Below are positions 11,275 to 56,897 of a stretch of 64,000 bases of DNA, piece by piece; the first letter of the stretch is position 1; each line of letters begins with the position of its first letter. The stretch comes from Commensalibacter oyaizuii (GTDB lineage Bacteria > Pseudomonadota > Alphaproteobacteria > Acetobacterales > Acetobacteraceae). Position numbers and translations under genes: made by a program. The stretch covers positions 1,272,501 through 1,336,500 of the forward strand of contig NZ_JASBAO010000001.1 in the NCBI RefSeq assembly GCF_029953265.1. Direction: 5' to 3'. Below the pieces are notes generated by a model. That model had not been told where the DNA came from and did not search any database. It worked only from the letters and a program-made list of their open reading frames with translations.

Positions 11275-11886
11275 TTATTCTAAAGGTAATGCGTGTAACT
11301 CCCATGCCTTGCCCCCGTCAACAGGCGGACGGGCACACAAAGGTTGGGCATTGGGCAAACGTACATTCGCTTTTAACCCCATCATGTGACGCAACGAACG
11401 GAAAATACCACCATGGGCAACAATCAAGACATTCCCTTCCCCTGCCTTGCGAATGGAACGATTTACGGCTTCGCTGATCCGTGCGCATAATGTTTGGAAA
11501 GATTCCCCACCTTCTGGGGTAAATTTCCCTGCAATCCAATCATCGTACCATGGCCCCATTGGCTGGCCTTCCTCTGTACCAAAACAAACTTCTTTCAAAC
11601 TGTCATCAAGTTCAACAGGAATCGTAACACCAACTTTTTCTTTGATAATTGCGGCTGTAATTTCAGCTGTGCGACGTGCACGCCCCAAAGGGGAACTGAC
11701 AATTTGGGTAATGGGCAATTCCAATTGCTCCCAATGATTAGCAATTGCATTGCCTGCAGCCACGGCTTGTGATAAACCGACTGTATTTAATGGAATATCT
11801 GTGCGTCCTTGCGATAAATTACGTGCATTCCAATCGGTCTGACCATGACGCAAATACCAATAAGGACGTGTAAGTAAAGAAGACAT
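11275..11886 (-). CDS. Histidine phosphatase family protein (phosphoglycerate mutase-like)
   Basis: A 203-residue branch-1 histidine phosphatase. The catalytic His is in RHGQTDWNARNLSQGRTDIP, with the supporting Arg in ARRTAEI, Glu in EVCFGTEEG and second His in VAHGGIFRSL. The fold covers cofactor-dependent phosphoglycerate mutases and small-molecule phosphatases; the short length and GpmB-like pattern favour a phosphatase over the glycolytic enzyme. AAAGG stands before the ATG. It follows prs by 21 bases and is probably in its transcript. Confidence 0.85.
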   Translation of the reverse strand: MSSLLTRPYWYLRHGQTDWNARNLSQGRTDIPLNTVGLSQAVAAGNAIANHWEQLELPITQIVSSPLGRARRTAEITAAIIKEKVGVTIPVELDDSLKEVCFGTEEGQPMGPWYDDWIAGKFTPEGGESFQTLCARISEAVNRSIRKAGEGNVLIVAHGGIFRSLRHMMGLKANVRLPNAQPLCARPPVDGGKAWELHALPLE

Positions 11887-11907
11887 AAAATAACCTTTAC
11901 AAATAAA

Positions 11908-12843
11908 TTAATCAAACAAAGACGAAACTGAACTTTCATCTGCAACGGCCCGAATGGCCCGTCCCAACAAATTATCCAAAGAAATTTGACGAATTTTAGT
12001 CGCCGCACGCACAGCATCAGATTTTAAAATGCTGTCTGTGATCACTAATTCACCAATAACAGAATTTTGCACTCTTTCTGGTGCACTGCCAGATAATACA
12101 CCGTGTGTAACATAAGCATCAATAGCAGTCGCCCCAGCATTCATTAGCGCTTGCGCTGCATTGCACAAAGACCCACCGCTATCGATAATATCATCAACTA
12201 ATAAACAATGACGACCCTCGACATTTCCAATGACGTTCATCACTTCGGAAACCCCAGCACGTTCACGGCGTTTATCTATGATCGCCAAATCCACGTCTAA
12301 ACGTTTTGCCAATTGACGGGCTCGCACCACCCCCCCCACGTCTGGGGATACCACCATAATGTCGTTCTTCCCTGCGTGCTTTTTCATAATATCACGAGTA
12401 AATAAAGGAGCTGCATACAAATTATCAACAGGAATATCAAAAAAACCCTGAATCTGACCAGCATGTAGATCAAGGGTTAAAACACGATTAGCCCCAGCCT
12501 CTACCAATAAATTTGCAACCAGTTTTGCACTGATAGGTGTTCTGGGACCTGATTTACGATCCTGACGTGCATATCCAAAATAGGGAATAACCGCTGTAAC
12601 CCGTCGTGCAGATCCGCGACGTAATGCATCCAACATAATCAATAATTCCATTAAATTATCATTGGTTGGATAACTTGTACTTTGTACTGCAAAAATGTCC
12701 TCGCCCCGAACATTTTCATAAATTTCAACAAATACCTCTTTATCCGCAAAACGCTGAACAGACGCATCACACAACGGCATCTTTAAATCCGCTGCCACAG
12801 CCTCTGCCAATGGGCGATTACTATTCCCAGAAATAATTTTCAT
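11908..12843 (-). CDS. prs: Ribose-phosphate pyrophosphokinase
   Basis: A 311-residue class I PRPP synthase, transferring pyrophosphate from ATP to ribose 5-phosphate for nucleotide, His, Trp and NAD synthesis. Motifs seen are [10 protein letters not shown], the flexible-loop and metal site [19 protein letters not shown], and the PRPP-binding [17 protein letters not shown] lies nine bases before the ATG at 12843. Full length, in line with a leftward run of housekeeping genes. Confidence 0.97.
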
Positions 12844-12897
12844 TTATGCAACTCCAATATAAACCAGATCAACAAAAGATCCCGTTTTTATCCTTAT

Positions 12898-13869
12898 TTA
12901 ATTTTGTAACCCAGGTGGGGTAACCAATGGTGCCTTTGTCATACCACCATTTTCTGCCAAAGGTCGATTATTACGCCCTGAATAATTATCAATAACCCGT
13001 TTAATACCCCCAGCTGCCTCCTCACCAACAGCAGAACCCGTATCGCCCCAATATACATCTAAACTATGTGCGGGGACATCGTTTATTTGGGTTACTTTTC
13101 CAGCTTCCTTACCCTTTTTATCAACAATCCGCCAAACGACCTCAACATGCTGTACGGGATTCCCTCTTGTTCCTGCCGCACCATTTGTCACGCTTACATT
13201 ACACCCAACACTATAATCTGCCTTACTCTTATCTTGCTGTATGGCATTTAATTTATCATTTAAAGAAACAACAAACTGTCTGGCAATAACTGTGTTCCCA
13301 TCACCTGGGGCACCTTTTACCCCCTCAAAATAAATCTGGGCAGGGCGATTTTTTAAACTATGAGGATCTGATACCATCTGACGCGCCTGCAATCCCGTTA
13401 GCACCTCGTTTACAATTGGGGCTGCCTGCTGGGCAACCTGTGCGTAAATTGCTTCGTTCCCACTGGCCCAATCTTTCGTTGAAACAGGCATCGCATCACG
13501 CGTGGCTTGTACCTTACCATCAGGAGAGATGATGCTGAGTTTAGGCACCACCATATCCCCTTGGTTCTCAACTTTTGTGACTAATAACCATTCTCCCTTT
13601 TGTGCCTTGCCAACAACTGCAGGAACCGTTTGATCCAACATTGCTTTGGCAATGTCATGTGCAAGCACTGCCGATTCTTTGTCATTCAACAAAGATTCCG
13701 TTGGAACTGGGACAATTAATCGCGCAGGTGGAGGATTACTTAATACCCCCCCCTTATTGCCTGCTTGCTTTTCAAAAGGATGAGGAACCGTCATACAACC
13801 TATTAAAGGCGTAAAACTTAATAAACAGGCTACTATTTTAGAAACTCTAAAAAAAGATATCTCTTTCAT
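12898..13869 (-). CDS. Predicted lipoprotein of unknown function
   Basis: A 323-residue protein with a lipoprotein signal: a short charged start (MKEISFFR), a hydrophobic stretch and the lipobox LIGC at about residue 25, so it should be lipid-anchored in the envelope. The remainder holds a proline-rich spacer and a soluble domain with no family I recognise. The start ATG at 13869 has AAGGA upstream and lies seven bases after the pgeF stop, so it is in the lgt-midA-pgeF transcript; Lgt is the enzyme that would lipidate it. It resembles proteins found only in acetic acid bacteria, but that is an impression. Confidence 0.75.
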   Translation of the reverse strand: MKEISFFRVSKIVACLLSFTPLIGCMTVPHPFEKQAGNKGGVLSNPPPARLIVPVPTESLLNDKESAVLAHDIAKAMLDQTVPAVVGKAQKGEWLLVTKVENQGDMVVPKLSIISPDGKVQATRDAMPVSTKDWASGNEAIYAQVAQQAAPIVNEVLTGLQARQMVSDPHSLKNRPAQIYFEGVKGAPGDGNTVIARQFVVSLNDKLNAIQQDKSKADYSVGCNVSVTNGAAGTRGNPVQHVEVVWRIVDKKGKEAGKVTQINDVPAHSLDVYWGDTGSAVGEEAAGGIKRVIDNYSGRNNRPLAENGGMTKAPLVTPPGLQN

Positions 13870-13876
13870 CCGCAAT

Positions 13877-14650
13877 TTATCCTTTGTAACAAGCAATAGC
13901 TGAAATTTGATGTCCCAATGGTCCACCTCCTGCCAATGTACGACGCCGATGACTGAAAAAATGTTTAGGGTCTGTTAACGTATCCCTTCCCAAACCTGCA
14001 ACAATTCCAACGCGCCGTCTTTTTAAACGATCAATGCAATAATGACCTAAATCAAACAAATATTGATCATCTCGAATCAATTTAAAAAAGGAGCTTCCCT
14101 CTGGATCATACTCTAAAACTTGCTGACGCATGTCTTCTTTTACTTCGTATCGAGATCCATCAATACATGGGCCCACAACTGCAATAATTTCATGTATTTT
14201 TGCCCCCAAATTTTCCATTTGAGTTACAACCTCTTCCAAAATTCCACCAGCAGCGCCACGCCATCCTGCATGCGCAGCCCCCACAATTTTGCCATCGAAC
14301 GTGCTTAATAAAATAGGTCCACAATCCGCAGTAACAACACTGACAGCAATATCTGGGTCATTTGTAACCCCACCATCAACCTCGTCGGCTGCACAATTTT
14401 CTTTGGTCACATACTCGATTTTGGTACTATGTATTTGCATGCCCCCCCATAAATTTTGAGGATCGACCCCCATAATATCTGCAACAATATGTCTGTTCTT
14501 TTGAATATGGGCAGGATTATCTTCGGTTTTTAACCCGCAATTTAATGAAGCATATCCACCTTCAGAAACACCCCCCAAGCGGGTGAAAAATCCATGTCGA
14601 ACTATGTTCGATAATAAAGAATGACGAATAACACAAGGTTCAGCAGTCAT
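13877..14650 (-). CDS. pgeF: Peptidoglycan editing factor PgeF (YfiH, DUF152)
   Basis: A 257-residue multicopper-polyphenol-oxidase-fold protein. The family in bacteria removes misincorporated L-Ser from peptidoglycan precursors and also has purine nucleosidase activity. The zinc-site residues are visible: His in MQIHSTKIE, Cys in VVTADCGPI and His in GAAHAGWRGAAGG. VRHGFFTRLGGVSEG opens the domain. The ATG at 14650 overlaps the midA stop by 11 bases; upstream in-frame ATGs are less well placed. Confidence 0.92.
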   Translation of the reverse strand: MTAEPCVIRHSLLSNIVRHGFFTRLGGVSEGGYASLNCGLKTEDNPAHIQKNRHIVADIMGVDPQNLWGGMQIHSTKIEYVTKENCAADEVDGGVTNDPDIAVSVVTADCGPILLSTFDGKIVGAAHAGWRGAAGGILEEVVTQMENLGAKIHEIIAVVGPCIDGSRYEVKEDMRQQVLEYDPEGSSFFKLIRDDQYLFDLGHYCIDRLKRRRVGIVAGLGRDTLTDPKHFFSHRRRTLAGGGPLGHQISAIACYKG

Positions 14651-44114: not shown

Positions 44115-45338
44115 CTATTTTAACAACAAAGCCCGCAATGCATTAACCATATCATCCATCATATCATCTGTGTGAAATGGATTAGGCGTTAAACGTAGTC
44201 GCTCTTTTCCCTTGGGGACAGTTGGATAGTTGATAGGCGTTGCATAAATTGCATATTCTTCTAGCAAACGTCTGCTAACCTCCTTACATAAATTAGCATC
44301 CCCAATCATCACAGGTACGATTTGGCTTTCCGTCTGAATAAAGGGAATACCAGCATCTTTTAATTTTTGCTGGAATGTATGAACGCGTTCGAACAATTTC
44401 TCACGTCGCCAGTTTTGTTCACGCACCAAACGTACACTAGCCAGTGCTGCTGCAACTACCGATGGAGGTAGTGACGTGGTGAAAATAAATCCTGATGCAG
44501 CTAATCTTAAATATTCGATAATATCCTTGTTGGCGGTAACGTATCCTCCGTGAACGCCGAATCCTTTTGCCAGTGTTCCTTCGATAATATCAACCTGGTC
44601 TGCGACCCCATCGCGCTCTGAAACACCACCGCCTTGTTTACCGTACAAACCAACGGCATGTACTTCATCCAAATACGTTAATGCATTGTATTTACGTGCC
44701 AACGCACATATTGCCCCTATATCAGCAATATCCCCGTCCATTGAATAAACACTTTCAAAAGCGATCATTTTTGGTGAATCTTTAGGAGCTGCAGCTAGTT
44801 TTGATTCCAAATCATTTAGATCGTTATGTTTAAAGATGATACAATCAGATCCTTTTGCCCCCTTGATTCCTGCAATCATTGACGCGTGATTTTGCTGATC
44901 AGAAAAGGTAATCCAGCCTCCAGACATACTGGTTAAAATTGTTTGTAAACTAGCCTGATTAGACACGTACCCAGAGACAAATAACAATCCAGCCTCTTTA
45001 CCATGTAGATCTGCAAGCTCTGCTTCTAGTGCTACATGCAAAGGATGTGTTCCTGCTATATTGCGCGTTCCCCCGGCCCCTGCACCGTATTCCTGTATCG
45101 CGGTAATTGCGGCATTCATGACTTCGGGTTCGATACCCATCCCCAAGTAATCATTAGCAGACCATACAACAACCGGTCTTTCTGGTTGTTGTGGTGTGTC
45201 ATTGTCATAAATCGGATAATGTGCAGATCGTCTGCTTAACGGTGTAAATCTACGATATCGCCCCTGTTGTTCAATGTCTTGTAATGCAGTTTTACAATAT
45301 GCGTAAAAAGGGTGTGCAGATATCGTACGTTCTGTCAC
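44115..45338 (-). CDS. hemA: 5-aminolevulinate synthase
   Basis: A 407-residue PLP enzyme that condenses glycine and succinyl-CoA to 5-aminolevulinate, the C4 (Shemin) route to haem used by alphaproteobacteria. Visible: VVWSANDYLGMG, AGGTRNIAGTHPLHVALE, the cofactor region YLDEVHAVGLYG, and the Schiff-base Lys in TLAKGFGVHGGY. The start is a GTG at 45338 with AAGGAG nine bases before it. Confidence 0.96.
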   Translation of the reverse strand: MTERTISAHPFYAYCKTALQDIEQQGRYRRFTPLSRRSAHYPIYDNDTPQQPERPVVVWSANDYLGMGIEPEVMNAAITAIQEYGAGAGGTRNIAGTHPLHVALEAELADLHGKEAGLLFVSGYVSNQASLQTILTSMSGGWITFSDQQNHASMIAGIKGAKGSDCIIFKHNDLNDLESKLAAAPKDSPKMIAFESVYSMDGDIADIGAICALARKYNALTYLDEVHAVGLYGKQGGGVSERDGVADQVDIIEGTLAKGFGVHGGYVTANKDIIEYLRLAASGFIFTTSLPPSVVAAALASVRLVREQNWRREKLFERVHTFQQKLKDAGIPFIQTESQIVPVMIGDANLCKEVSRRLLEEYAIYATPINYPTVPKGKERLRLTPNPFHTDDMMDDMVNALRALLLK

Positions 45339-45432
45339 TTAAACTTACTCCTTAAATTCCGTACAGATTATTATAATATCAATCTAAAATCTTACGTCTG
45401 TGGATAATGATATGGTTTTTAAAAATTTGAAA

Positions 45433-45882
45433 TTAATGAATATCGACCCGCACAACATTTTTTTGCACTGCCCCGTCTGCTTTGGCTGTTAATTGAACCT
45501 GTTCTGGTCTAGCACCAGCCTTAACAATGGCCTGTGCAACAGCCTGCCCATCTTGTTTCACAGTTTTTTGCAGTTGTTCTTGTTGTAAGGATGGTGTTTG
45601 TGCAACAGGCGTTACAATGGTCACAACAAATAAAGCATCTGCTTTTCTTTTCAACGCATCCCTAACCAAAATTGCTAAAGGCTTTGCCCATTGATCAGCA
45701 GGAGTACCCTGTACAATTTCGATTGGCGGGGCTGGCGGTGGTGGGGCTGGTGGGGCTGGCGGAACATAAGGTATAGGTTTGCGCCCTGCACTGGGATTAA
45801 ACGTTCTTTGATCCACCAATTTACATGCGTTCAGGAAAAATAAACTGCTTAATATTATAAAAGTATTATAACGACGGGACAT
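45433..45882 (-). CDS. Small proline-rich lipoprotein of unknown function
   Basis: A 149-residue protein with a lipobox (FLNAC, about residue 20), a proline-rich linker (VPPAPPAPPPPAPP) and an 85-residue alpha/beta domain whose C-terminal part (AQAIVKAGARPEQVQLTAKAD) resembles the fold of OmpA-like or periplasmic adaptor domains, though I cannot assign a family. The linker could span peptidoglycan. Single gene. Confidence 0.7.
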   Translation of the reverse strand: MSRRYNTFIILSSLFFLNACKLVDQRTFNPSAGRKPIPYVPPAPPAPPPPAPPIEIVQGTPADQWAKPLAILVRDALKRKADALFVVTIVTPVAQTPSLQQEQLQKTVKQDGQAVAQAIVKAGARPEQVQLTAKADGAVQKNVVRVDIH

Positions 45883-46353
45883 AATTTTATCTATTGCAAG
45901 GGGTTTATATAAATAACACCATAGGAAAACATTTTATAGTTTATCAAGTTATTTTCCTAATACTCATGCAAATTATATTCAAGATAAAATTGCATTACCC
46001 TTAAAATATAATATTTTAATAAAATTTTATAAAACGAACTACCACTATATAAAATAATAATATTTTATACAATCTTACCTATTAAAAAAAAACAATATAT
46101 ACTGCTACCTGAGTTACAATCTTTATCATTTATTAAAATACTTGTTGACAAGTTTGCAATATCGTTTTCACACTAGATTATTCGAAAATCAAAAAGGTTC
46201 TTTAAAATATGATAAATGCATTTTTAAAATTCCCGTCATCAAAAAAACGTGACTGATTTTCAAAAATTTAAGTATAATCTGTTAGGAACATAAACCTACA
46301 TTTTTGTTTTTAAGTCTTTCTATAATCTATAATACTTTAAGGAGATTTTTATT
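45883..46353 (+). promoter_or_regulatory. Intergenic region and candidate promoter of gap-pgk
   Basis: These 471 AT-rich bases hold the gap promoter. The best candidate is GTGACT (46249-46254), an 18-base spacer, and a perfect TATAAT (46273-46278), giving a leader of about 70 bases that ends in AAGGAG nine bases before the ATG. A palindrome ACTTGT-TG-ACAAGT (46140-46153) further upstream could be an operator. No gene is seen in the stretch. Confidence 0.5.
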
Positions 46354-47376
46354 ATGGCTATTAAAGTTGCAATTAACGGTTTTGGTCGTATCGGTCGTTT
46401 GGTACTACGCAGCATCATCGAAACAGGCCGCACCGATGCCGAAGTTGTTTTAATTAACGATCTAGGAAGCCCAGAAGCAAACGCACATCTTCTTACCTAT
46501 GATACGGTTCATGGTCGTCTTCCTGCTGATGTTACTGTTACAGATAACACTATGACCATTAAAACCCATGCTGGTCGTACCATTGGCCCCATCAAAATCA
46601 CCGCAGAAAGAGACCCAAGCAAATTACCCCTACAAGGTGTGGATGTTGCTATGGAATGTACGGGTCTGTTCACAAATAAGGCAGCCGCTGGTGAATTATT
46701 AAAAGCAGGTGCTCGCAAAGTATTAATCTCTGCCCCTGGTAAAGAAGTCGATGCAACCGTTGTATATGGTGTTAACCAAAATGTTATCACCAGTGACATG
46801 ACTGTCATTTCCAACGCTTCTTGTACAACAAACTGCTTGGCCCCAATTGCCAAAGTATTGCAAGACACTGTTGGTATCGAATTTGGTAGCATGATTACCA
46901 TCCACTCATACACAGGTGACCAACGTACTGTTGATACATTACACAAAGATCTACACCGCGCACGTGCTGCTGCACAAAATATTATTCCAACGACTACAGG
47001 TGCTGCAAAAGCCGTTGCATTGGTTATTCCTGAATTAAAAGGCAAACTAGACGGTATTGCTATTCGTGTTCCAACCCCTAACGTTTCTTATGTTGCATTA
47101 GAATTCGTTCCAAGCAAAATCCCTGCTTCTATTGAAGAATTAAATGCTTATTTCAAAAAGGCAGCTGAAGGTCCATTAAAGGGAATCTTGGGTTATAATG
47201 ACAAACCATTGGTAAGCTCTGACTTCAATCACTGCTACAATTCTTCTACATTCGATGCAACTCAAACAGGGTTTATTGATGGTGGTAAAATGATCCGCGT
47301 TGCAGGTTGGTATGATAACGAATGGGGTTTCTCAACCCGTATGACTGATACAGCAGTTATTTTAGGAAGCAAATAA
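46354..47376 (+). CDS. gap: Glyceraldehyde-3-phosphate dehydrogenase (type I)
   Basis: A 340-residue NAD-linked glycolytic and gluconeogenic enzyme. The cofactor loop [11 protein letters not shown], catalytic Cys in [12 protein letters not shown], and [11 protein letters not shown] at the C-terminus are complete. AAGGAG precedes the ATG. pgk follows two bases after the stop, so the enzymes of consecutive steps are co-expressed. Confidence 0.98.
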
Positions 47377-47378
47377 CA

Positions 47379-48605
47379 ATGGTTGATCAAAAAGCATTTA
47401 AAACGCTTGATGATCTTGATTGTAAAGGTAAAAAAGTACTATTACGTGGGGACTTAAATGTTCCCACCCATGATGGTAAAATTACCGATACAACAAGATT
47501 GGAACGTTTAGCCCCTACGATCCAAGAATTGGTGAAAAAGGGTGCAAAAGTCATCATTTGCAGTCACTTTGCCCGTCCAAAGGGGAAAGTGGTTCCTGAA
47601 ATGTCTTTAAGACCTGTTGGTCAATCATTGGCCCACATCTTAAATCTGCCCGTTGCATTTGCGGATAATTGTATTGGCCCAGATGCCAAAAAAGCAGTCG
47701 ATGCGTTAAAAGACGGTGACATTTTGTTACTGGAAAATACCCGCTTCCACGCTGGTGAAGAAAAGAACGATCCAACATTATCAAAAGAATTGGCTGCGTT
47801 GGCTGACATCTATGTTGATGATGCGTTTTCTGCATCTCATCGTGCCCATGCCTCAACAGAGGGGGTTACAAAATACCTTCCTTCTTTTGCGGGGCGTTTA
47901 ATGGAAACAGAACTGAATGCATTAAACCGCGCGTTAGAAAACCCAAAACGCCCAGTAGGTGCCATCGTTGGTGGATCGAAAATATCTACTAAATTGGATC
48001 TACTTTCCAATATGATCAGCAAAGTTGACGTATTGGTTATTGGTGGTGCAATGGCGAATACTTTCCTCGCTGCTCAAGGCGTTAAAGTTGGCAAATCATT
48101 GCAAGAAGCGGAAATGCATGACACCGCACGCAATATTATGGCAACGGCCAAGGAAAAGGGTTGTAAGATTCTGCTTCCTGTCGATGTTGTTGTTGCTGCT
48201 GAATTAAAAAATGATCCAGCAACCAAAATCGTAGATGTCAATGCGGTTCCTGATGACCAAATGATTTTAGATGTTGGGCCAAAAACCGTAGAATTGTTGA
48301 ATAAAACCCTAACTGAACTGAAAACTTTGGTTTGGAACGGTCCTTTAGGTGCATTTGAATTCACCCCATTTGACAAAGCAACCAATGCAGTGGCTCAAGA
48401 AGCTGCCAAATTAACCAAAGCTGGCAAACTGGAAAGTGTTGCTGGTGGTGGGGATACCGTTTCTGCGTTAAAACATGCGGGTGTTATTCATGACATGTCC
48501 TATGTCTCTACCGCTGGCGGTGCCTTCCTTGAATGGCTGGAAGGTAAAGCACTTCCCGGTATTGTTGCTTTGACAACATTGGCACGGGAAACTATTCCTT
48601 TGTAG
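47379..48605 (+). CDS. pgk: Phosphoglycerate kinase
   Basis: A 408-residue kinase that interconverts 1,3-bisphosphoglycerate and 3-phosphoglycerate with ADP/ATP. Substrate-site [18 protein letters not shown], hinge and nucleotide motifs [14 protein letters not shown] and [14 protein letters not shown] are seen. Full length; ends 5 bases before the operon terminator stem region. Confidence 0.98.
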
Positions 48606-50542: not shown

Positions 50543-50730
50543 TCGTACATATTAAAGCACACCCTTATCCAACAAAAGCAGCAACTAATATCAAATTATT
50601 TAAAGATAAAATAAGCAGATTAAAAAAACTACTTTTTTGAACCAGTTATAGACAAGTAAAAAAGCCTTACAGTAACAACTATAAGGCCATTTTAATAAGG
50701 CTCACAAAAACTTCTAAACGTAATTTGAAT

Positions 50731-52254
50731 CTATGCTACTCTACAAATTAAAGGTGTTTTTCCAACTTCAGTTCTATGTATCAAAACAGAATCTGGCGGC
50801 ACGCACGACAATCTAAACCGACAATTATTTTTTATAAAAGCTGACTTCTGATAATCCGAGAATTTAGCCTTAGATGCAAATAAACCACTTAGCATTGCCT
50901 CGGTTATTGTTATTTGTACAGTACTGTCGTTGCAAATCTGTTTGTAATCTGCGTAATTATTGGTTGCTATCACTAAATGCACATCATTTCCCTGCTGGTT
51001 GACGTGCAATTGATAGATGTCTGCAATTTTATTTAAATCAACGATATTCGCATCCTTTAAATTCTGAGCGATAATCGGCAATGCGTGCGGAACATAAAAT
51101 GCCGTACTTGCAATCGTAATAAAATCATCACTGCGTCCTACATATTCGAACTGCATTGAATTCAAAGAATGTGTCTTCAAATTTGACCTTCTTATCACGC
51201 GATCTCCTAATTTATATCTTAAGACGGGGGCTTCATTCGCAAATAACCTTGTTACGACCAAGTCGCCTTCTTCCCCCTCTTGAACCCAACGGCCATTTTC
51301 GTCAACAATTTCAATTAAATGTAATCCGGGTACGGCGGTTAAAATATTACTATTTTCGTCTAGTTGCAGGCCAATGGTTTCGGCTTGGGTAGCAGCAAAG
51401 AAACTCAATATCAATAAATTAGGATAAGCACACCTTAGATCATCTTTTACCTTTTGAGGTAATAAGCCACTACCATATAAAACCAATCGCAACTCTTGTT
51501 TTTGCTGATTGGTCAACGAATTGGCATATGGCACCAAAGCGGCAATATCATTAACAATACCCATCAATACTTTTTGTCCTGGGTTGTTCATAATACGTTG
51601 ATACGTATTACAAGACATCGGACCAATACCTAAATAATTTATATTAGGAATTTCTTGTAATAACCCACCAACCATAGTGCCACTGCTCCATAATTGGTTA
51701 TCTGCTAATGTTGTTCCAACCCAACATGCTTGTTTGGCATCCATATAAGGTTCAATAATATGTTGCCCAATAAATGTGCCAGCCCTTTTGTAAGTATCTA
51801 ATAACTCTTGTCGAGAATACACAATCTCGGAGGCACGACCAGAAGCTGTACCACCACTATTGGCAATTTGAAATCCACCTCTTTCCACTGGAACGACCAT
51901 TCCAATACGTTTATCCGCAAAGAGATCTGTAAAAACTTCTTTATTAGTGACGGGGATAGACATAAACGCTTCAAAAGACGTTATTGGATCAGTACCAACA
52001 ACGTTATTTATACGATCCTTCCAAACGGGGTTCGTTCGACATATCTCTACCAATTGTGTTATTCGCCTTAAGACAACGGCCTCTTGGACATTAATATCAA
52101 GCGCATCAAAAGATGTTCCTGTTATTGTTTGTGAAAAATTTAAACGTGACAGAAACGTAGGTAATTGTAAAATCTCATCTATATTTTTTGGGTATAGCAA
52201 CGATTCAGGAATAACAGTTTCTAATATTTCTTGAACAGAATTTGTGATAGGCAT
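50731..52254 (-). CDS. PaaK-like AMP-forming acyl/aryl ligase (stand-alone adenylation enzyme)
   Basis: A 507-residue member of the phenylacetate-CoA ligase branch of the adenylate-forming superfamily. The phosphate loop is ANSGGTASGRASEIVYS, followed by FFAATQAETIG (adenine site), GDLVVTRL, LRYKLGDRV and YVGRSDDFITI; the C-terminal catalytic Lys is in RTEVGKTPLI (about K499). All catalytic elements are present, so it should be active, but loading onto CoA, a carrier protein or directly an amine is not shown. It lies 28 bases after the decarboxylase gene, in one transcript. Confidence 0.82.
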   Translation of the reverse strand: MPITNSVQEILETVIPESLLYPKNIDEILQLPTFLSRLNFSQTITGTSFDALDINVQEAVVLRRITQLVEICRTNPVWKDRINNVVGTDPITSFEAFMSIPVTNKEVFTDLFADKRIGMVVPVERGGFQIANSGGTASGRASEIVYSRQELLDTYKRAGTFIGQHIIEPYMDAKQACWVGTTLADNQLWSSGTMVGGLLQEIPNINYLGIGPMSCNTYQRIMNNPGQKVLMGIVNDIAALVPYANSLTNQQKQELRLVLYGSGLLPQKVKDDLRCAYPNLLILSFFAATQAETIGLQLDENSNILTAVPGLHLIEIVDENGRWVQEGEEGDLVVTRLFANEAPVLRYKLGDRVIRRSNLKTHSLNSMQFEYVGRSDDFITIASTAFYVPHALPIIAQNLKDANIVDLNKIADIYQLHVNQQGNDVHLVIATNNYADYKQICNDSTVQITITEAMLSGLFASKAKFSDYQKSAFIKNNCRFRLSCVPPDSVLIHRTEVGKTPLICRVA

Positions 52255-52282
52255 AATATATTCTTTGTTAATACTATATATT

Positions 52283-53788
52283 TTACAATTTTATAATTTT
52301 GTTACTTGTTTTTCGAATATTAATGATCAGATCAATAACATCATTGATCGTAATTTCATGATTCATTATAACAATGCGCAGTGCCGTTACATCATCTAAA
52401 TCCACCTTAGAAATAAAATGCCGCCCACCAGTGCGTAACACATTCCAAATTTTAAGTTGTAATTGATTTAACTGCTGATCTGGTACCCCTTTGGGGACAT
52501 ATCGAAAACATAAAATATTGGACTCTGGTGCGTGTAAAACTTCAAAATCATTCAAAGATTGAATGTAATTGTAAGCTTGGGCTGTAATCTCAACTAAATA
52601 ATTTAATTTTTCTTCAAATAACGTTCTGCCGTATAATGTCCATGCCACCCATAAATTCAAAATGGAGGGTCGTTTAGTACATTCAAAGTTCTTAGTCCCG
52701 CTTTCAAAGCGACTAATTTCATCAGTTTCTGAAACATAACTGGCATGAGATGGAAAAGATAAATTTGAATGTGCAGCATTTTTATAAAAAAGCAGTGTAC
52801 AAGCAGCAGGAACAAATAATGTTTTATGCGCATCCAAGCAAAAAGAATCTGCATACGATAAATCCTTGACCTTGCTTCTTAACTGGTCTGAAACTAAAAA
52901 AGCACCACTATGCGCTGCATCCACATGAAACCATGCATCATATTGATGGGCCAAATCGGCCAATTCTTTCAACGGATCGATTGCACCAACACTTGTTGTT
53001 CCAGCAGAGCCAATAATACAAAACACACGTAATCCTTTGGCCTTGGCTTGTTGTAATGCTTGTTGTGCTTTGCGAATACAAATTTGACGTTTTTTATTGA
53101 TAGGTAAGATAACAATATTATCTTGTCCTATTCCTAAAATCCCCGCAAGCCGACTTACTGAAAAATGAGAATCAGCTCCAATCGCTATTGCTGGCTTTTC
53201 ACTACCTTGTACCAAAGTACCTTGTCGTAAAATATCCGGAAATTTAAGATTGCGCGCTGCAGTGACCGCAGTCAGATTGGCAAGGCTGGCCCCTGAGGTT
53301 GAAATCATATCAAAATCTTGCTGTTCCCAACCAAGAAAATGGCTGAACTCCTCTGCCATAATTTTATCAGCAACATTCGGTAAAGGTCCACATTCATAAA
53401 AAGAAGCGGGCTGAGGACATATCGAAGCAACCATATCATACATCGCTGCGACAGGGACAACAGATGAAAATTGTCTTGCCATATATCCGGTTGAATTTAC
53501 TCGAATTCCAGTGCGAATATGTAAGTCAATAATACTGTTAAATCGTTCTAATGGCGTTTTATGCTCGAAATCTTTGGTTGTTAATTGCTTAACGATATTC
53601 ATTAAATTAGAAGGTTGAATTAAATGAACACCATGCTTACTTTTATCTTGTAGCAAGTGCGTAATCTTTTGATCAATGCATTCCAAAAAATCTGAGACCA
53701 AAGAGGGATTAAAAGCGTCATATAAAACTGAATGATTTACAGCATTGGATAATTGATTTTCTTGCAAATCAAAAAGAATATTTTTCAT
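52283..53788 (-). CDS. Group II PLP-dependent amino-acid decarboxylase
   Basis: A 501-residue enzyme of the group II decarboxylase family (aromatic amino acid, histidine, glutamate, diaminobutyrate decarboxylases). The PLP region shows ISTSGASLANL, the Asp in FHVDAAHSGA, and the Schiff-base Lys in LDAHKTLFVP (K322). The usual GGT-ANL reads GASLANL, and DPHKW reads DAHKT, so it is a divergent branch; the substrate cannot be assigned. It would give a primary amine. First gene of a two-gene leftward unit. Confidence 0.85.
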   Translation of the reverse strand: MKNILFDLQENQLSNAVNHSVLYDAFNPSLVSDFLECIDQKITHLLQDKSKHGVHLIQPSNLMNIVKQLTTKDFEHKTPLERFNSIIDLHIRTGIRVNSTGYMARQFSSVVPVAAMYDMVASICPQPASFYECGPLPNVADKIMAEEFSHFLGWEQQDFDMISTSGASLANLTAVTAARNLKFPDILRQGTLVQGSEKPAIAIGADSHFSVSRLAGILGIGQDNIVILPINKKRQICIRKAQQALQQAKAKGLRVFCIIGSAGTTSVGAIDPLKELADLAHQYDAWFHVDAAHSGAFLVSDQLRSKVKDLSYADSFCLDAHKTLFVPAACTLLFYKNAAHSNLSFPSHASYVSETDEISRFESGTKNFECTKRPSILNLWVAWTLYGRTLFEEKLNYLVEITAQAYNYIQSLNDFEVLHAPESNILCFRYVPKGVPDQQLNQLQLKIWNVLRTGGRHFISKVDLDDVTALRIVIMNHEITINDVIDLIINIRKTSNKIIKL

Positions 53789-54102
53789 TTTACTACCTTG
53801 AATTAGTTCGATTTTGCCAATTCTAGGTAGCTTTCATATAATTTTATATAGAGTAAAAAGACAAATAACAGTCAAAAAAAGAAAATTTTAACATTACTTA
53901 AAATATCTTACTAAACGAACAAGTCTTTTTCACGACCCCACAAAAACAGCCAAAAAATGATTATTTTATTTCGTTTTTTTACCAAAAATGACGCTCATTA
54001 TGTCTGAAATACAACCATATTTGTCACTTTTGCCTCTCTTAAAAATTTTTAATCAAATTATAGTATGGGGATCTTAACTTTTTTTAATAAGGTTTAATAA
54101 AC
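53789..54102. promoter_or_regulatory. Divergent promoter region of the adenylation/condensation cluster
   Basis: These 314 bases lie between the leftward decarboxylase-ligase pair and the rightward hydrolase-condensation pair, so both arms can be controlled together. TATAGT (54059-54064) lies about 40 bases before the rightward ATG, without a good -35, as expected for an activator-dependent promoter. Two imperfect direct repeats CCAAAAA(A)TGA (53950-53960, 53982-53991) could be sites for the AraC-type regulator at 55962. Confidence 0.4.
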
Positions 54103-54660
54103 ATGAAAAATACGGCTTTAATGATCATTGATTTACAAAATGACTATTTTGCTGAAGGTAAATTTCCGCTGCCTGATATTGATACGGTCTCAGAGCAAAG
54201 CAAAAAAGTTCTTGAAATGGCGCGCAAGAATTCACTTCCTATTATTCACGTTAAACATGAATTCACCTCACCAGAGGCGCCTTTCTTTACCCCAGCCTCC
54301 AAAGGGTGTGAAATTAATGAAATTGTTAAGCCATTACATAGTGAACATGTTGTGGTAAAAAATTATCCAAATTCTTTCAAAGGAACAAACGTCAAAGAAA
54401 TTTTAGATCAGCATCATTGCAAAAACATTATTATCGTCGGAGCAATGGCCCAAATGTGTGTTGACGCTACCGTTCGTGCTGGGGCTGATCTTGGGTATAA
54501 TATTACAATCATTCACGATGCTGTCGCAGCACAGCAAGCAAAGTTTAACGACATTGACGTTTCTGCCGACGAGGTTCACGCATCTTTTATGAATGCGCTT
54601 TCTTTTGGTTATGCGAGCGTTATCGATACAAAAGAATTTATTTCTCAACTACAAAAATAA
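54103..54660 (+). CDS. Isochorismatase-like cysteine hydrolase
   Basis: A 185-residue isochorismatase-fold hydrolase. The triad is visible: Asp in IIDLQNDYF (D10), Lys in VVKNYPNSFKGTN (about K86) and Cys in GAMAQMCVDATVRAG (about C118). The family covers nicotinamidases, isochorismatases, N-carbamoyl and other amide hydrolases; absence of chorismate-pathway genes argues against an isochorismate role. AAGG lies ten bases before the ATG. It is 21 bases upstream of the condensation-type gene. Confidence 0.85.
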   Translation: MKNTALMIIDLQNDYFAEGKFPLPDIDTVSEQSKKVLEMARKNSLPIIHVKHEFTSPEAPFFTPASKGCEINEIVKPLHSEHVVVKNYPNSFKGTNVKEILDQHHCKNIIIVGAMAQMCVDATVRAGADLGYNITIIHDAVAAQQAKFNDIDVSADEVHASFMNALSFGYASVIDTKEFISQLQK

Positions 54661-54681
54661 TAATTTTAGATTGTTGTTCCT

Positions 54682-55959
54682 ATGTATTCACGTCACTTAA
54701 ATACTGTTGAGACAGGTATGGCTAACGCCCACGCCAGCTTTATGGGTTCATCGCAAGTTGTTACCTTGATTTATATTGATCACAAGATTGATGAAACTGA
54801 ATGTCAACGAATCTTTACACAATATTGTCTTGATAATCCTATTCTTTTATCTAAACTGATCGTTAATGGGGATAAATGGTACGTTAAGCGTGATAAAACA
54901 CTTCATAATCCCAGCTTTAACACATTCAGAATGGATTACCATTTACCCAAATTTGATACGATCTTAAGAAAAGAAGTTAATGATATTTTAGATCACTCAA
55001 GTGAGTTAACCCGATTACGAATTATTTATCTGCAAAAAAATATTGGATGCTTGTTAATCTTAACACAACATCATGCAATAGCAGATACTTTCTCTGCAAA
55101 ACAGGTCCTATCCCATATCTTAAGTTCTGTGGACAACTCAAAACAACAACATTCCTTTGAACATATGCCTGTATGGCATCCTACTGTGCCCTGTCGCCGT
55201 TGCGAGGATGACCTACATTCCGACATATCAAACACTTCAAATATTGTGCCTTTACACAAAGCACTTTATAAAATTAATAATCCAACGCCTACACCTGTAA
55301 CAAATTTACATAGCTGGATTATTAATAGAAATGAATTGAAGGCTCTTGATCACTATTCAAAAGCTTCGAATGTTTCTTTGAATTCGTTATTGACTTCGAT
55401 TTTTTCACTTGCTGTTATGGACGTATTACATATACGAAGTATTAATACCTATAGCGCAGTTTCTTTACGAAAAAAAAATAAAGATTTAACAGAAATTGGA
55501 TGTAAGTTAGAAATCGCTGACATTAATATTCAAATGTCAGATATCGCGACTGCGGCTCAACTATTTGAAAAGCGAATGCATGCCATTAAAAATGCAATAC
55601 CAAGAGAAGCAGAAGAAGATAGTTTAATTCCTGCAAATCATATACCTCAACATATTAACCGTCAAAATGCCATTAACGGATGTGAGGGACTGGGATTTAC
55701 TAATGGTGGAAAAACAGAAAATTTACTGACACAACCTGATATTCATATTCTAGCTTATCGATCAGTTGCTAATCGCACTTCGGGCAGTTTATTATTTACT
55801 TTTCATTTCTCATTTCATCTTGGAACCTTGGTCATAACAGCTGTTTTCTCTGAATTAATTCTAAGTGCAGAACAAAGTAAAATTTTTATTGAAAATGCAC
55901 ATCGTATTATTCATTCAATTGCCATGGCTTATACTTCGCCCGTAGCCTATGAAATATAA
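54682..55959 (+). CDS. Free-standing condensation/acyltransferase-fold protein
   Basis: A 425-residue protein of the condensation-domain superfamily (NRPS C domains, PapA-type acyltransferases). The opening RHLNTVETGMANAHASF fits the usual start, and the catalytic motif HH-xxx-D is present as QHHAIADTFS (H130, H131, D135), with Thr where Gly is usual. A structural motif near residues 270-285 (YSAVSLRKKN) matches the position of the family's second core region. Such proteins join an acyl thioester or adenylate to an amine or hydroxyl. There is no carrier domain. The ribosome site is weak, so it may be coupled to the preceding gene. Confidence 0.72.
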   Translation: MYSRHLNTVETGMANAHASFMGSSQVVTLIYIDHKIDETECQRIFTQYCLDNPILLSKLIVNGDKWYVKRDKTLHNPSFNTFRMDYHLPKFDTILRKEVNDILDHSSELTRLRIIYLQKNIGCLLILTQHHAIADTFSAKQVLSHILSSVDNSKQQHSFEHMPVWHPTVPCRRCEDDLHSDISNTSNIVPLHKALYKINNPTPTPVTNLHSWIINRNELKALDHYSKASNVSLNSLLTSIFSLAVMDVLHIRSINTYSAVSLRKKNKDLTEIGCKLEIADINIQMSDIATAAQLFEKRMHAIKNAIPREAEEDSLIPANHIPQHINRQNAINGCEGLGFTNGGKTENLLTQPDIHILAYRSVANRTSGSLLFTFHFSFHLGTLVITAVFSELILSAEQSKIFIENAHRIIHSIAMAYTSPVAYEI

Positions 55960-55961
55960 AA

Positions 55962-56897
55962 CTATGTTTTAATACCATATTTTCTACGATATTCTCTTGG
56001 GGTAAGGCTGGTAATTTTTGTAAAATTTTTACGAAAAGAGCTGGTATCAGCATATCCAATTTCCCAAGAGATTTGATCAATCGAGGCATTGGTACTGGCA
56101 AGAATATTCCGCGCGCGTTCAATTTTAAAATGTTGTAAATATGCTTTTGGCGTTAGTTTCGTTGACTTTTTAAAACGCCTTAGAAAAGTTCGTTCTTCTA
56201 GCCCAGACTGATTAACCAAATCTTTGACAGTGACCTTACGCAAATTTGTATTTAATAACCATCGTTGAGCTTTCAAAATAGCTTTGTCACCGTGGTTATA
56301 TTTCGGCATGAAATTAATATATGAACTTTGTAATTTTCTTGGGGGGTCAATCAGCATGAACTGGGTTGTCCTTAGCATAATACTGCGGTCAAGGAAACGT
56401 TCGACAACCCTTAATCCCAAATCAATCCAAGCCATCATACCACCAGCGGTAATGATATCCCCATCATCAATTAAAATCTTATCTTCTTTTATGATAACAT
56501 TGGGAAAAGTATATTTAAAAATTTCAGCATAGGCCCAGTGGGTCGTTGCTTCTCTATTATTCAACAAATTCGTTTCAGCTAAAATAAATGTTCCTGCACA
56601 AATAGAAGCCAAAATACATCCTTGCTCATGATAGTGAAGTAAAAATTTAAGTAAGTTTTGATTATCCGATCTGTTGGGAATTTTATCTAGGCTGGGGGGT
56701 AAAATAATAACATTTGGTATCTCTTTACCCACAGAGTACAATGCTTCATCTGATATGATTTCTACTTTGATTTTTTGTTTGGCAGCACACGCATATTCTG
56801 CCATAGAGAAAAGATCTGCAAGGCCGTAAATAGCGGCTTTCTGGGCTGTCTTATATGCAATAATCCATATTTGAATAACAGAACGATCCTTTACCAT
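55962..56897 (-). CDS. GlxA-type AraC family transcriptional regulator
   Basis: A 311-residue regulator: an N-terminal DJ-1/PfpI-like domain (about residues 8-190, with SICAGTFILAETNLL holding the nucleophile-elbow Cys) and a C-terminal AraC double helix-turn-helix (about 215-308, LEERTFLRRFKKSTKLTPKAYL and ISWEIGYADTSSFRKNFTK). Members often activate amine, betaine or carnitine catabolism genes. It ends two bases from the convergent condensation-type gene, so it most likely controls this cluster. Confidence 0.9.
   Translation of the reverse strand: MVKDRSVIQIWIIAYKTAQKAAIYGLADLFSMAEYACAAKQKIKVEIISDEALYSVGKEIPNVIILPPSLDKIPNRSDNQNLLKFLLHYHEQGCILASICAGTFILAETNLLNNREATTHWAYAEIFKYTFPNVIIKEDKILIDDGDIITAGGMMAWIDLGLRVVERFLDRSIMLRTTQFMLIDPPRKLQSSYINFMPKYNHGDKAILKAQRWLLNTNLRKVTVKDLVNQSGLEERTFLRRFKKSTKLTPKAYLQHFKIERARNILASTNASIDQISWEIGYADTSSFRKNFTKITSLTPREYRRKYGIKT

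Follow-up and report, generated by a model that had tools for sequence, protein, structure and literature searches.

Gut Clostridia carry fatty acid amide (FAA, or OAA) clusters made up of OaaA, OaaACP and OaaC, in which a free-standing condensation domain joins a fatty acid bound to an acyl carrier protein (ACP) to a small amine. Such condensation domains have a (D/H)HxxxD(S/A) motif and need the ACP in its holo form (PMC13142362). A five-gene unit with a free-standing condensation-type protein is present in Commensalibacter oyaizuii, within a 64-kb stretch (the window) of the 2.41 Mb genome of the source strain. The unit resembles the FAA clusters in that the protein adjoins an adenylating enzyme, again in gut bacteria, and that a small diffusible amine is expected as the acceptor. 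Its motif, HHxxxDT, likewise has no glycine after the aspartate, which fits the (D/H)HxxxD-not-G tendency, although the residue at this position is threonine rather than serine or alanine. Unlike the FAA clusters, the unit adds a decarboxylase, a cysteine hydrolase and a GlxA-type regulator, and the kinship of its protein to condensation domains is remote. It may be a mobile, inducible module making a small N-acyl amine, akin to the FAA clusters but without a carrier in the cluster, a reading that is put forward tentatively.

All five open reading frames (ORFs) are intact. Their coordinates and strands in the ORF list of the window are those given by an earlier, sequence-only reading, which had described five genes around a single divergent region with the regulator convergent at the end (Table 1). 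The genes are separated, in order, by 28 bp, 314 bp (the divergent region), 21 bp and 2 bp (the convergent pair). The same reading had claimed intact catalytic motifs, and K499 of the ligase, K322 of the decarboxylase, D10 and K86 of the hydrolase and the HHxxxD of the condensation-like protein are indeed present, but the cysteine of the hydrolase is C119 and not C118. With this correction, the residues, including H130, H131 and D135 of the condensation-like protein, are invariant in all four copies found in the genus, and those of the three enzymes are also invariant in a wider core set (8/8 sequences per enzyme).

The ligase was found in four of the nine Commensalibacter genomes and the condensation-like gene in the identical four. 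All five genes keep their order and orientation in these genomes, at three different sites. The possibility that the genes fail to co-occur in relatives was thus tested, and the shared set and order in 4/9 genomes of the genus favour the claim of a single unit; the co-occurrence of the five genes exceeds chance. In the window the unit is between pgk and ftsY, and in strains G122 and G152 it is between glnB-like and uvrA-like genes (all gene names read from sequence). In C. communis (G150) it is on contig 14, of 18,224 bases, beside a ParA-like gene and a RepM-like initiator that scores 158.7 bits, under its 250-bit cut-off. None of six stretches around ftsY compared from the genus aligns to the unit, and the pgk and ftsY alignments are approximately 0.8 kb apart in strain G154 and 3.0 kb apart in G122, against 8.7 kb in the window. 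The C. communis contig (L010:1-18220) also carries a polysaccharide-exporter-like ORF and a sugar-utilisation-like set, and is plasmid-like. Separately, four of the six stretches (L085-L088) show an inversion, relative to ftsY, of the segment that runs from the ORF at 44115 to pgk (window 44115-48605).

The cluster proteins diverge faster than the housekeeping marker FtsY. Between the window and C. communis, FtsY is 91% identical and the cluster proteins 71-79%; between the window and G122, the values are 85% and 42-64%. The ratio of nonsynonymous to synonymous substitution rates in the close pair G122/G152 is 0.10 for the ligase, 0.14 for the decarboxylase, 0.08 for the hydrolase, 0.08 for the condensation-like gene and 0.06 for the regulator, and all five genes are under purifying selection in this pair, from which alone the ratios were taken, more distant pairs being near or at silent-site saturation. 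The GC content of the unit is 35.6%, and that of the window is 38.6%. No further shared gene, such as a transporter, was seen in the ORF lists around the four copies.

The divergent region holds two conserved blocks. The first, of 26 bp, is identical in three diverged copies (the window, C. communis and G122), whereas the longest word shared in 300 first-order simulated sets was 12. Within it are GACAAATA and a TTGACT hexamer, the latter in the leftward reading direction. The second block is TGTCTGAAATACA-N3-ATATTTGTCA, with an inverted copy, TATTTGTC; GACAAATA and this inverse face the two operons in each of the three copies. With three mismatches allowed, the second block has a single occurrence in the window, and the first 15 bases of the first block have one exact occurrence and one with two mismatches at 44976. 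The blocks are good candidate operators, to which the GlxA-type regulator would bind. Sigma-70-like sites in the region are not above chance (27, against 30.9 expected). The stem-loop beyond the ligase gene is likely to be the end of the leftward transcript, which is argued from its position and not from the count, as four terminator-like sites were observed in the scanned region and 4.2 were expected from shuffles. Given the same order at three sites, the purifying selection and the conserved divergent promoter, the five genes are one conserved, selected, horizontally moving functional unit with a shared divergent control region.

Table 1. Features of the five-gene unit (window coordinates) and of the related loci outside the genus (coordinates within each locus)
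Feature	Position	Strand	Details
Terminator-like stem-loop with T run	50663..50688	-	about 43 bases beyond the ligase stop; consensus scan only
Adenylating ligase, predicted divergent PaaK-like family	50731..52254	-	507 aa; conserved K499
Group II decarboxylase dependent on pyridoxal phosphate (PLP)	52283..53788	-	501 aa; K322; nearest solved relative human GAD67
26-bp block	53860..53885		candidate operator/-35 region of leftward operon
Second conserved block	54001..54026		candidate operator of rightward operon
Isochorismatase-like cysteine hydrolase	54103..54660	+	185 aa; D10/K86/C119
Condensation-like protein	54682..55959	+	425 aa; HHxxxDT at residues 130-136
GlxA-type regulator	55962..56897	-	311 aa; DJ-1/PfpI domain and AraC helix-turn-helix
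Core trio and four small paralogues	L013:13415-19764		
Core trio and four small paralogues	L014:13625-19521		
Core trio and four small paralogues	L016:13421-19682		
Core trio and four small paralogues	L015:13220-19551		
Core trio and four small paralogues	L035:5737-11772		

On its matches, the ligase is assigned to a divergent PaaK-like family. It matches the PaaK structure 4r1l (3.7e-9 as a single sequence, 1.4e-11 as an eight-sequence profile), and scores 30.1 bits with the PaaK equivalog TIGR02155, far under the cut-off of 646.3. The likeness to PaaK-type phenylacetate-CoA ligases is in two stretches and in the presence of the terminal lysine, a residue with a role in adenylating enzymes. 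In contrast to the PaaK-type enzymes, the eight ligases of these units form a separate family with at least 39% mutual identity, and each adjoins a decarboxylase.

The decarboxylase matches Pyridoxal_deC (PF00282) at 163.1 bits, with a cut-off of 27. Its best match in the PDB is human GAD67 (2.3e-50), followed by GAD65, GADL1, a diaminobutyrate-type enzyme and CSAD. With the long GAD67 match (query 35-492) and the conserved PLP lysine it is like the GAD/CSAD-type group II decarboxylases, although it falls under the NCBIfam equivalog cut-offs shown, for example that of PanP (177.5 against 606.1 bits). Among the main lineages of the core set the identity of this enzyme is 42-59%. The earlier proposal that it makes an amine is reasonable, the nearest decarboxylases being those that act on glutamate and other acidic amino acids. 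From the nearest solved relatives listed above, the substrate is likely to be an acidic or diamino acid, and the product would be gamma-aminobutyric acid (GABA), beta-alanine or a diamine. The hydrolase matches Isochorismatase (PF00857) at 118.5 bits (cut-off 27), with an Asp-Lys-Cys triad, and its family is rich in amidases. The regulator has both DJ-1_PfpI (50.7 bits, cut-off 26.6) and HTH_18 (75.9 bits, cut-off 33.6) domains.

The condensation-like protein keeps both histidines and the aspartate of the active site motif in 4/4 copies from the genus, the glycine of HHxxxDG being replaced. For comparison, condensation domains (C domains) were taken from alphaproteobacterial genomes; 28 of the 30 loci fetched were used, 21 domains passed a motif filter and 20 were kept, one wrong-strand domain being dropped. 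A profile-profile alignment with these 20 domains has an E value of 7.8e-5 over columns 30-413. None of 100 column-shuffled decoys reached the real score (18.1 or less, against 42.3), and no match was obtained with five unrelated control alignments (E 0.12 or worse). The HH and the D are in register in the printed alignment of the 21-domain set with the condensation-like profile. In 398 Pseudomonadota genomes, the only match to this profile outside the genus is a frame of 3860 aa (E 2.1e-4), which is itself recognised by the C-domain profile at 1.7e-134. By profile comparison, the protein can be called condensation-like, with a remote kinship to the condensation domains of non-ribosomal peptide synthetases (NRPS), and is not a proven C domain.

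The three enzymes are also found together outside Commensalibacter. A tblastn search of 72,556 plasmid-collection records with the ligase gave eight matches, five in Bradyrhizobium, one in Sinorhizobium and one in Nonomuraea (40-46% identity), and one in Streptomyces. The Streptomyces match (21.6% identity) was rejected as a core locus, as its neighbourhood lacks the trio. Genome G867 came from a profile search across 248 genomes from a single alphaproteobacterial family. Five loci were viewed (L013, L014, L015, L016 and L035), from two Bradyrhizobium records, Sinorhizobium, Nonomuraea and the alphaproteobacterium G867; three other B. elkanii records are listed at 100.0% ligase identity to a viewed Bradyrhizobium record. 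The gene order in all five is decarboxylase, ligase, four small proteins and cysteine hydrolase, the hydrolase being reversed in Nonomuraea. In the annotated loci the ligase and the small proteins are labelled hypothetical. In G867, the trio is flanked by squalene/hopanoid-type ORFs (L035:1205-3300) and an MMPL-type transporter ORF (11871-14264), names read from sequence.

Searched at E 1 in all six reading frames, the five loci gave no match to the profiles of the condensation-like protein, the C domains and the regulator, while a control locus (L008) was found by the condensation-like and regulator profiles. No match to the condensation-like protein was found in the plasmid collection. The core trio of decarboxylase, ligase and hydrolase therefore exists without the condensation-like protein and the regulator, which is new here. 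This protein is thus not an obligatory step of the core chemistry, as the core is found with none beside it in four lineages. In the core set of eight, the identities rank the lineages alike for the decarboxylase and the ligase but not for the hydrolase, and the Nonomuraea hydrolase, 24-36% identical to all of the others, may have been recruited separately.

In the sample, which took in no whole genomes of Actinomycetota, the unit is rare. The condensation-like protein was found in 2/150 genomes of the family, both in the genus, and the ligase profile searches found 2/289 genomes of the class and three genuine cases in 398 of the phylum, in the genus only. Weak partial ligase matches in 13 further Pseudomonadota genomes (25-37 bits, covering 46-174 positions) were taken for ordinary PaaK-type matches and left out of the count.

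The four small paralogues between ligase and hydrolase in the loci outside the genus resemble MakC/D and PixA. Pfam gave no match for the 12 that were scanned, but the NCBIfam MakCD model NF049870 matches all 20 small proteins of the five loci (12/12 and 8/8); the nine scores available are all under the 110-bit cut-off, eight at 59.6 bits or less and one at 23.4 bits. A profile of the 12 proteins matches the 'Inclusion body protein' 8rqy (2.9e-16) and MakD 6tct (1.4e-15) in the PDB. The likeness to MakC/MakD and PixA/AidA proteins lies in these model and profile matches, and is confined to the proteins from outside the genus. MakC and MakD have been described as accessory proteins that are not secreted and have no known function (PMC11484084), and the PixA/AidA proteins as a stationary-phase family that is poorly understood (PMC9060813). 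Unlike the MakC/MakD systems, the three annotated loci have no neighbour that is annotated as a pore-forming toxin, although many of the genes there are hypothetical and no search was aimed at one. No PixA/MakCD-like proteins were found in the nine Commensalibacter genomes, an empty result that is uninformative by itself, as the search had no positive-control genome.

In the pathway suggested for Commensalibacter, the decarboxylase would convert an amino acid, probably of the acidic glutamate or aspartate type, to an amine such as GABA or beta-alanine, and the PaaK-like ligase would convert a carboxylic acid to its adenylate and then to a coenzyme A (CoA) thioester. The condensation-like protein would join the amine and the activated acid, as the FAA free-standing condensation enzymes do, without a clustered carrier. 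The hydrolase may cleave the amide or a side product, and the regulator may sense the amine or the amide and act at the two blocks of the divergent promoter. We infer the substrate, the product and the condensation step.

Several findings count against this pathway. The strongest is that 5/5 loci viewed outside the genus have the core without the condensation-like protein. This protein scores 17.4 bits with the Pfam model Condensation (PF00668), under the cut-off of 30.6, and searches of the PDB with single-sequence and four-sequence queries found no C domain. Compared with the FAA clusters, the unit has no ACP, there being no PP-binding match in the window, and in place of an adenylation domain of the AMP-binding family it has the PaaK-like ligase, which scores 13.3 bits with the Pfam AMP-binding model (cut-off 29.9). 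The substrate class of the decarboxylase is weakly held. Of the substrate-site residues of GAD67, the counterparts of Y351 and R471 also occur in the diaminobutyrate-type enzyme 8zpi, and the glutamine position pairs with Q106 or with R105, depending on the alignment. These residues do not decide the substrate, as two are common to both kinds of enzyme and the third is ambiguous by one position. Furthermore, OaaC is reported to give no product from oleoyl-CoA (PMC13142362, a preprint), which speaks against an acyl-CoA donor.

The earlier proposal of an N-acyl amine therefore stands in part: the genes are one unit, no carrier is clustered with them and the genus is gut-associated, but the condensation-like protein is missing beside the core in four outside lineages and its family membership is remote. 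Because the trio exists without this protein, and so must do something by itself, amide synthesis by the whole unit is favoured only cautiously, and the alternative that the trio alone makes the product, although somewhat unlikely, has a serious claim. Here the ligase would be an amide synthetase, with the amine attacking the adenylate directly, or would act as a CoA ligase that supplies a common transferase. The condensation-like protein would only tailor the product, for example by a second O- or N-acylation, and the MakC/D-PixA-like proteins would bind or store it elsewhere. The trio is kept without the condensation-like protein in the five loci, from four lineages and two phyla, the lineage order of identities is similar for decarboxylase and ligase, and 20/20 small proteins match the MakCD model, all of which is in keeping with this alternative. 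However, the hydrolase departs from the lineage order, the Nonomuraea copy being both divergent and reversed, and no role in catalysis or storage is known for the small proteins. In addition, the condensation-like gene shares its 4/9 genomes of the genus with the ligase, lies 21 bp past the hydrolase gene and is under similar constraint, and is therefore not a casual passenger.

It is improbable that the unit is instead an FAA-type pathway with its carrier in trans, in which the ligase or another enzyme would load a housekeeping ACP, or the ACP of a sphingolipid-type or polyketide synthase (PKS) locus, and the condensation-like protein would take the acyl chain. The need of the FAA condensation domains for holo-ACP (PMC13142362) argues for such a carrier, and carriers elsewhere in the genome could act in trans. 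There are four PP-binding places in the genome. One is an 80-aa frame, another is a small carrier (80 aa) that belongs to a ligase/BioF-like gene set, and the other two are a PKS-like protein of 2205 aa and a ligase-carrier protein of 680 aa. All are more than 100 kb from the unit and none is within the window, which bears out the earlier statement that no carrier protein is adjacent. The unit is also on different replicons, with no carrier in the surroundings viewed, as read from the ORFs with no carrier search made there. The PKS-like and ligase-carrier proteins adjoin each other in a possible separate biosynthetic locus (L074, at 1203001-1222000 of contig C1), approximately 109 kb from the unit.

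A catabolic or detoxifying unit is likewise a poor prospect. The hydrolase would split an amide from the host or diet, the ligase would activate the freed acid, the decarboxylase would remove the amino acid and the condensation-like protein would conjugate what is left. The abundance of amidases in the hydrolase family is consistent with this, and GlxA-type regulators often control amine use. However, as a catabolic step, decarboxylation would be unusual in an aerobic acetic acid bacterium, and in the ORF lists the surroundings of the four copies have no extra gene in common that might serve such a role, for example a transporter.

Other explanations were rejected. A known NRPS pathway elsewhere in the genome was dismissed, there being no condensation domain at E 0.001 in the source strain. 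A phage origin had one weak phage record (28% identity over 34% of the ligase), with no relative in viral contigs and no PHROGs match for the two proteins scanned. For a defence role, PADLOC, run with five proteins, gave only weak SspA/DndA matches of the decarboxylase, taken as general PLP-fold similarity.

No description of this gene set was recognised in searches of the open-licence literature. The observation of the unit is sound, and better supported than could be known from the earlier reading, and its interpretation is plausible, although unproven in every chemical step. It is possible, if rather doubtful, that a mobile and undescribed three-enzyme amide core, made up of a GAD-like decarboxylase, a new PaaK-like ligase family and a cysteine amidase, exists in Alphaproteobacteria and Actinomycetota and has been joined by one of two unrelated partners: in insect-gut Commensalibacter by a carrier-free amide synthase of the condensation type, and in rhizobial plasmids and an actinomycete by a quartet of small MakC/D-PixA-like proteins. 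The core may also be a handle on the PixA/MakC/D-like proteins, four of which sit between two assayable enzymes, and may help to find the role of that family. The unit is small and is carried by the named strain C. communis LMG 31819, which makes it testable. If the core does have these two partners, condensation-fold enzymes could produce amides directed at the host with free CoA or adenylates as donors. If the N-acyl amine reading is right, insect gut bacteria would possess a small, transferable set of genes for amides similar to those by which human gut Clostridia reach host receptors, with no need of a clustered carrier, and this would simplify the picture of condensation-fold chemistry.

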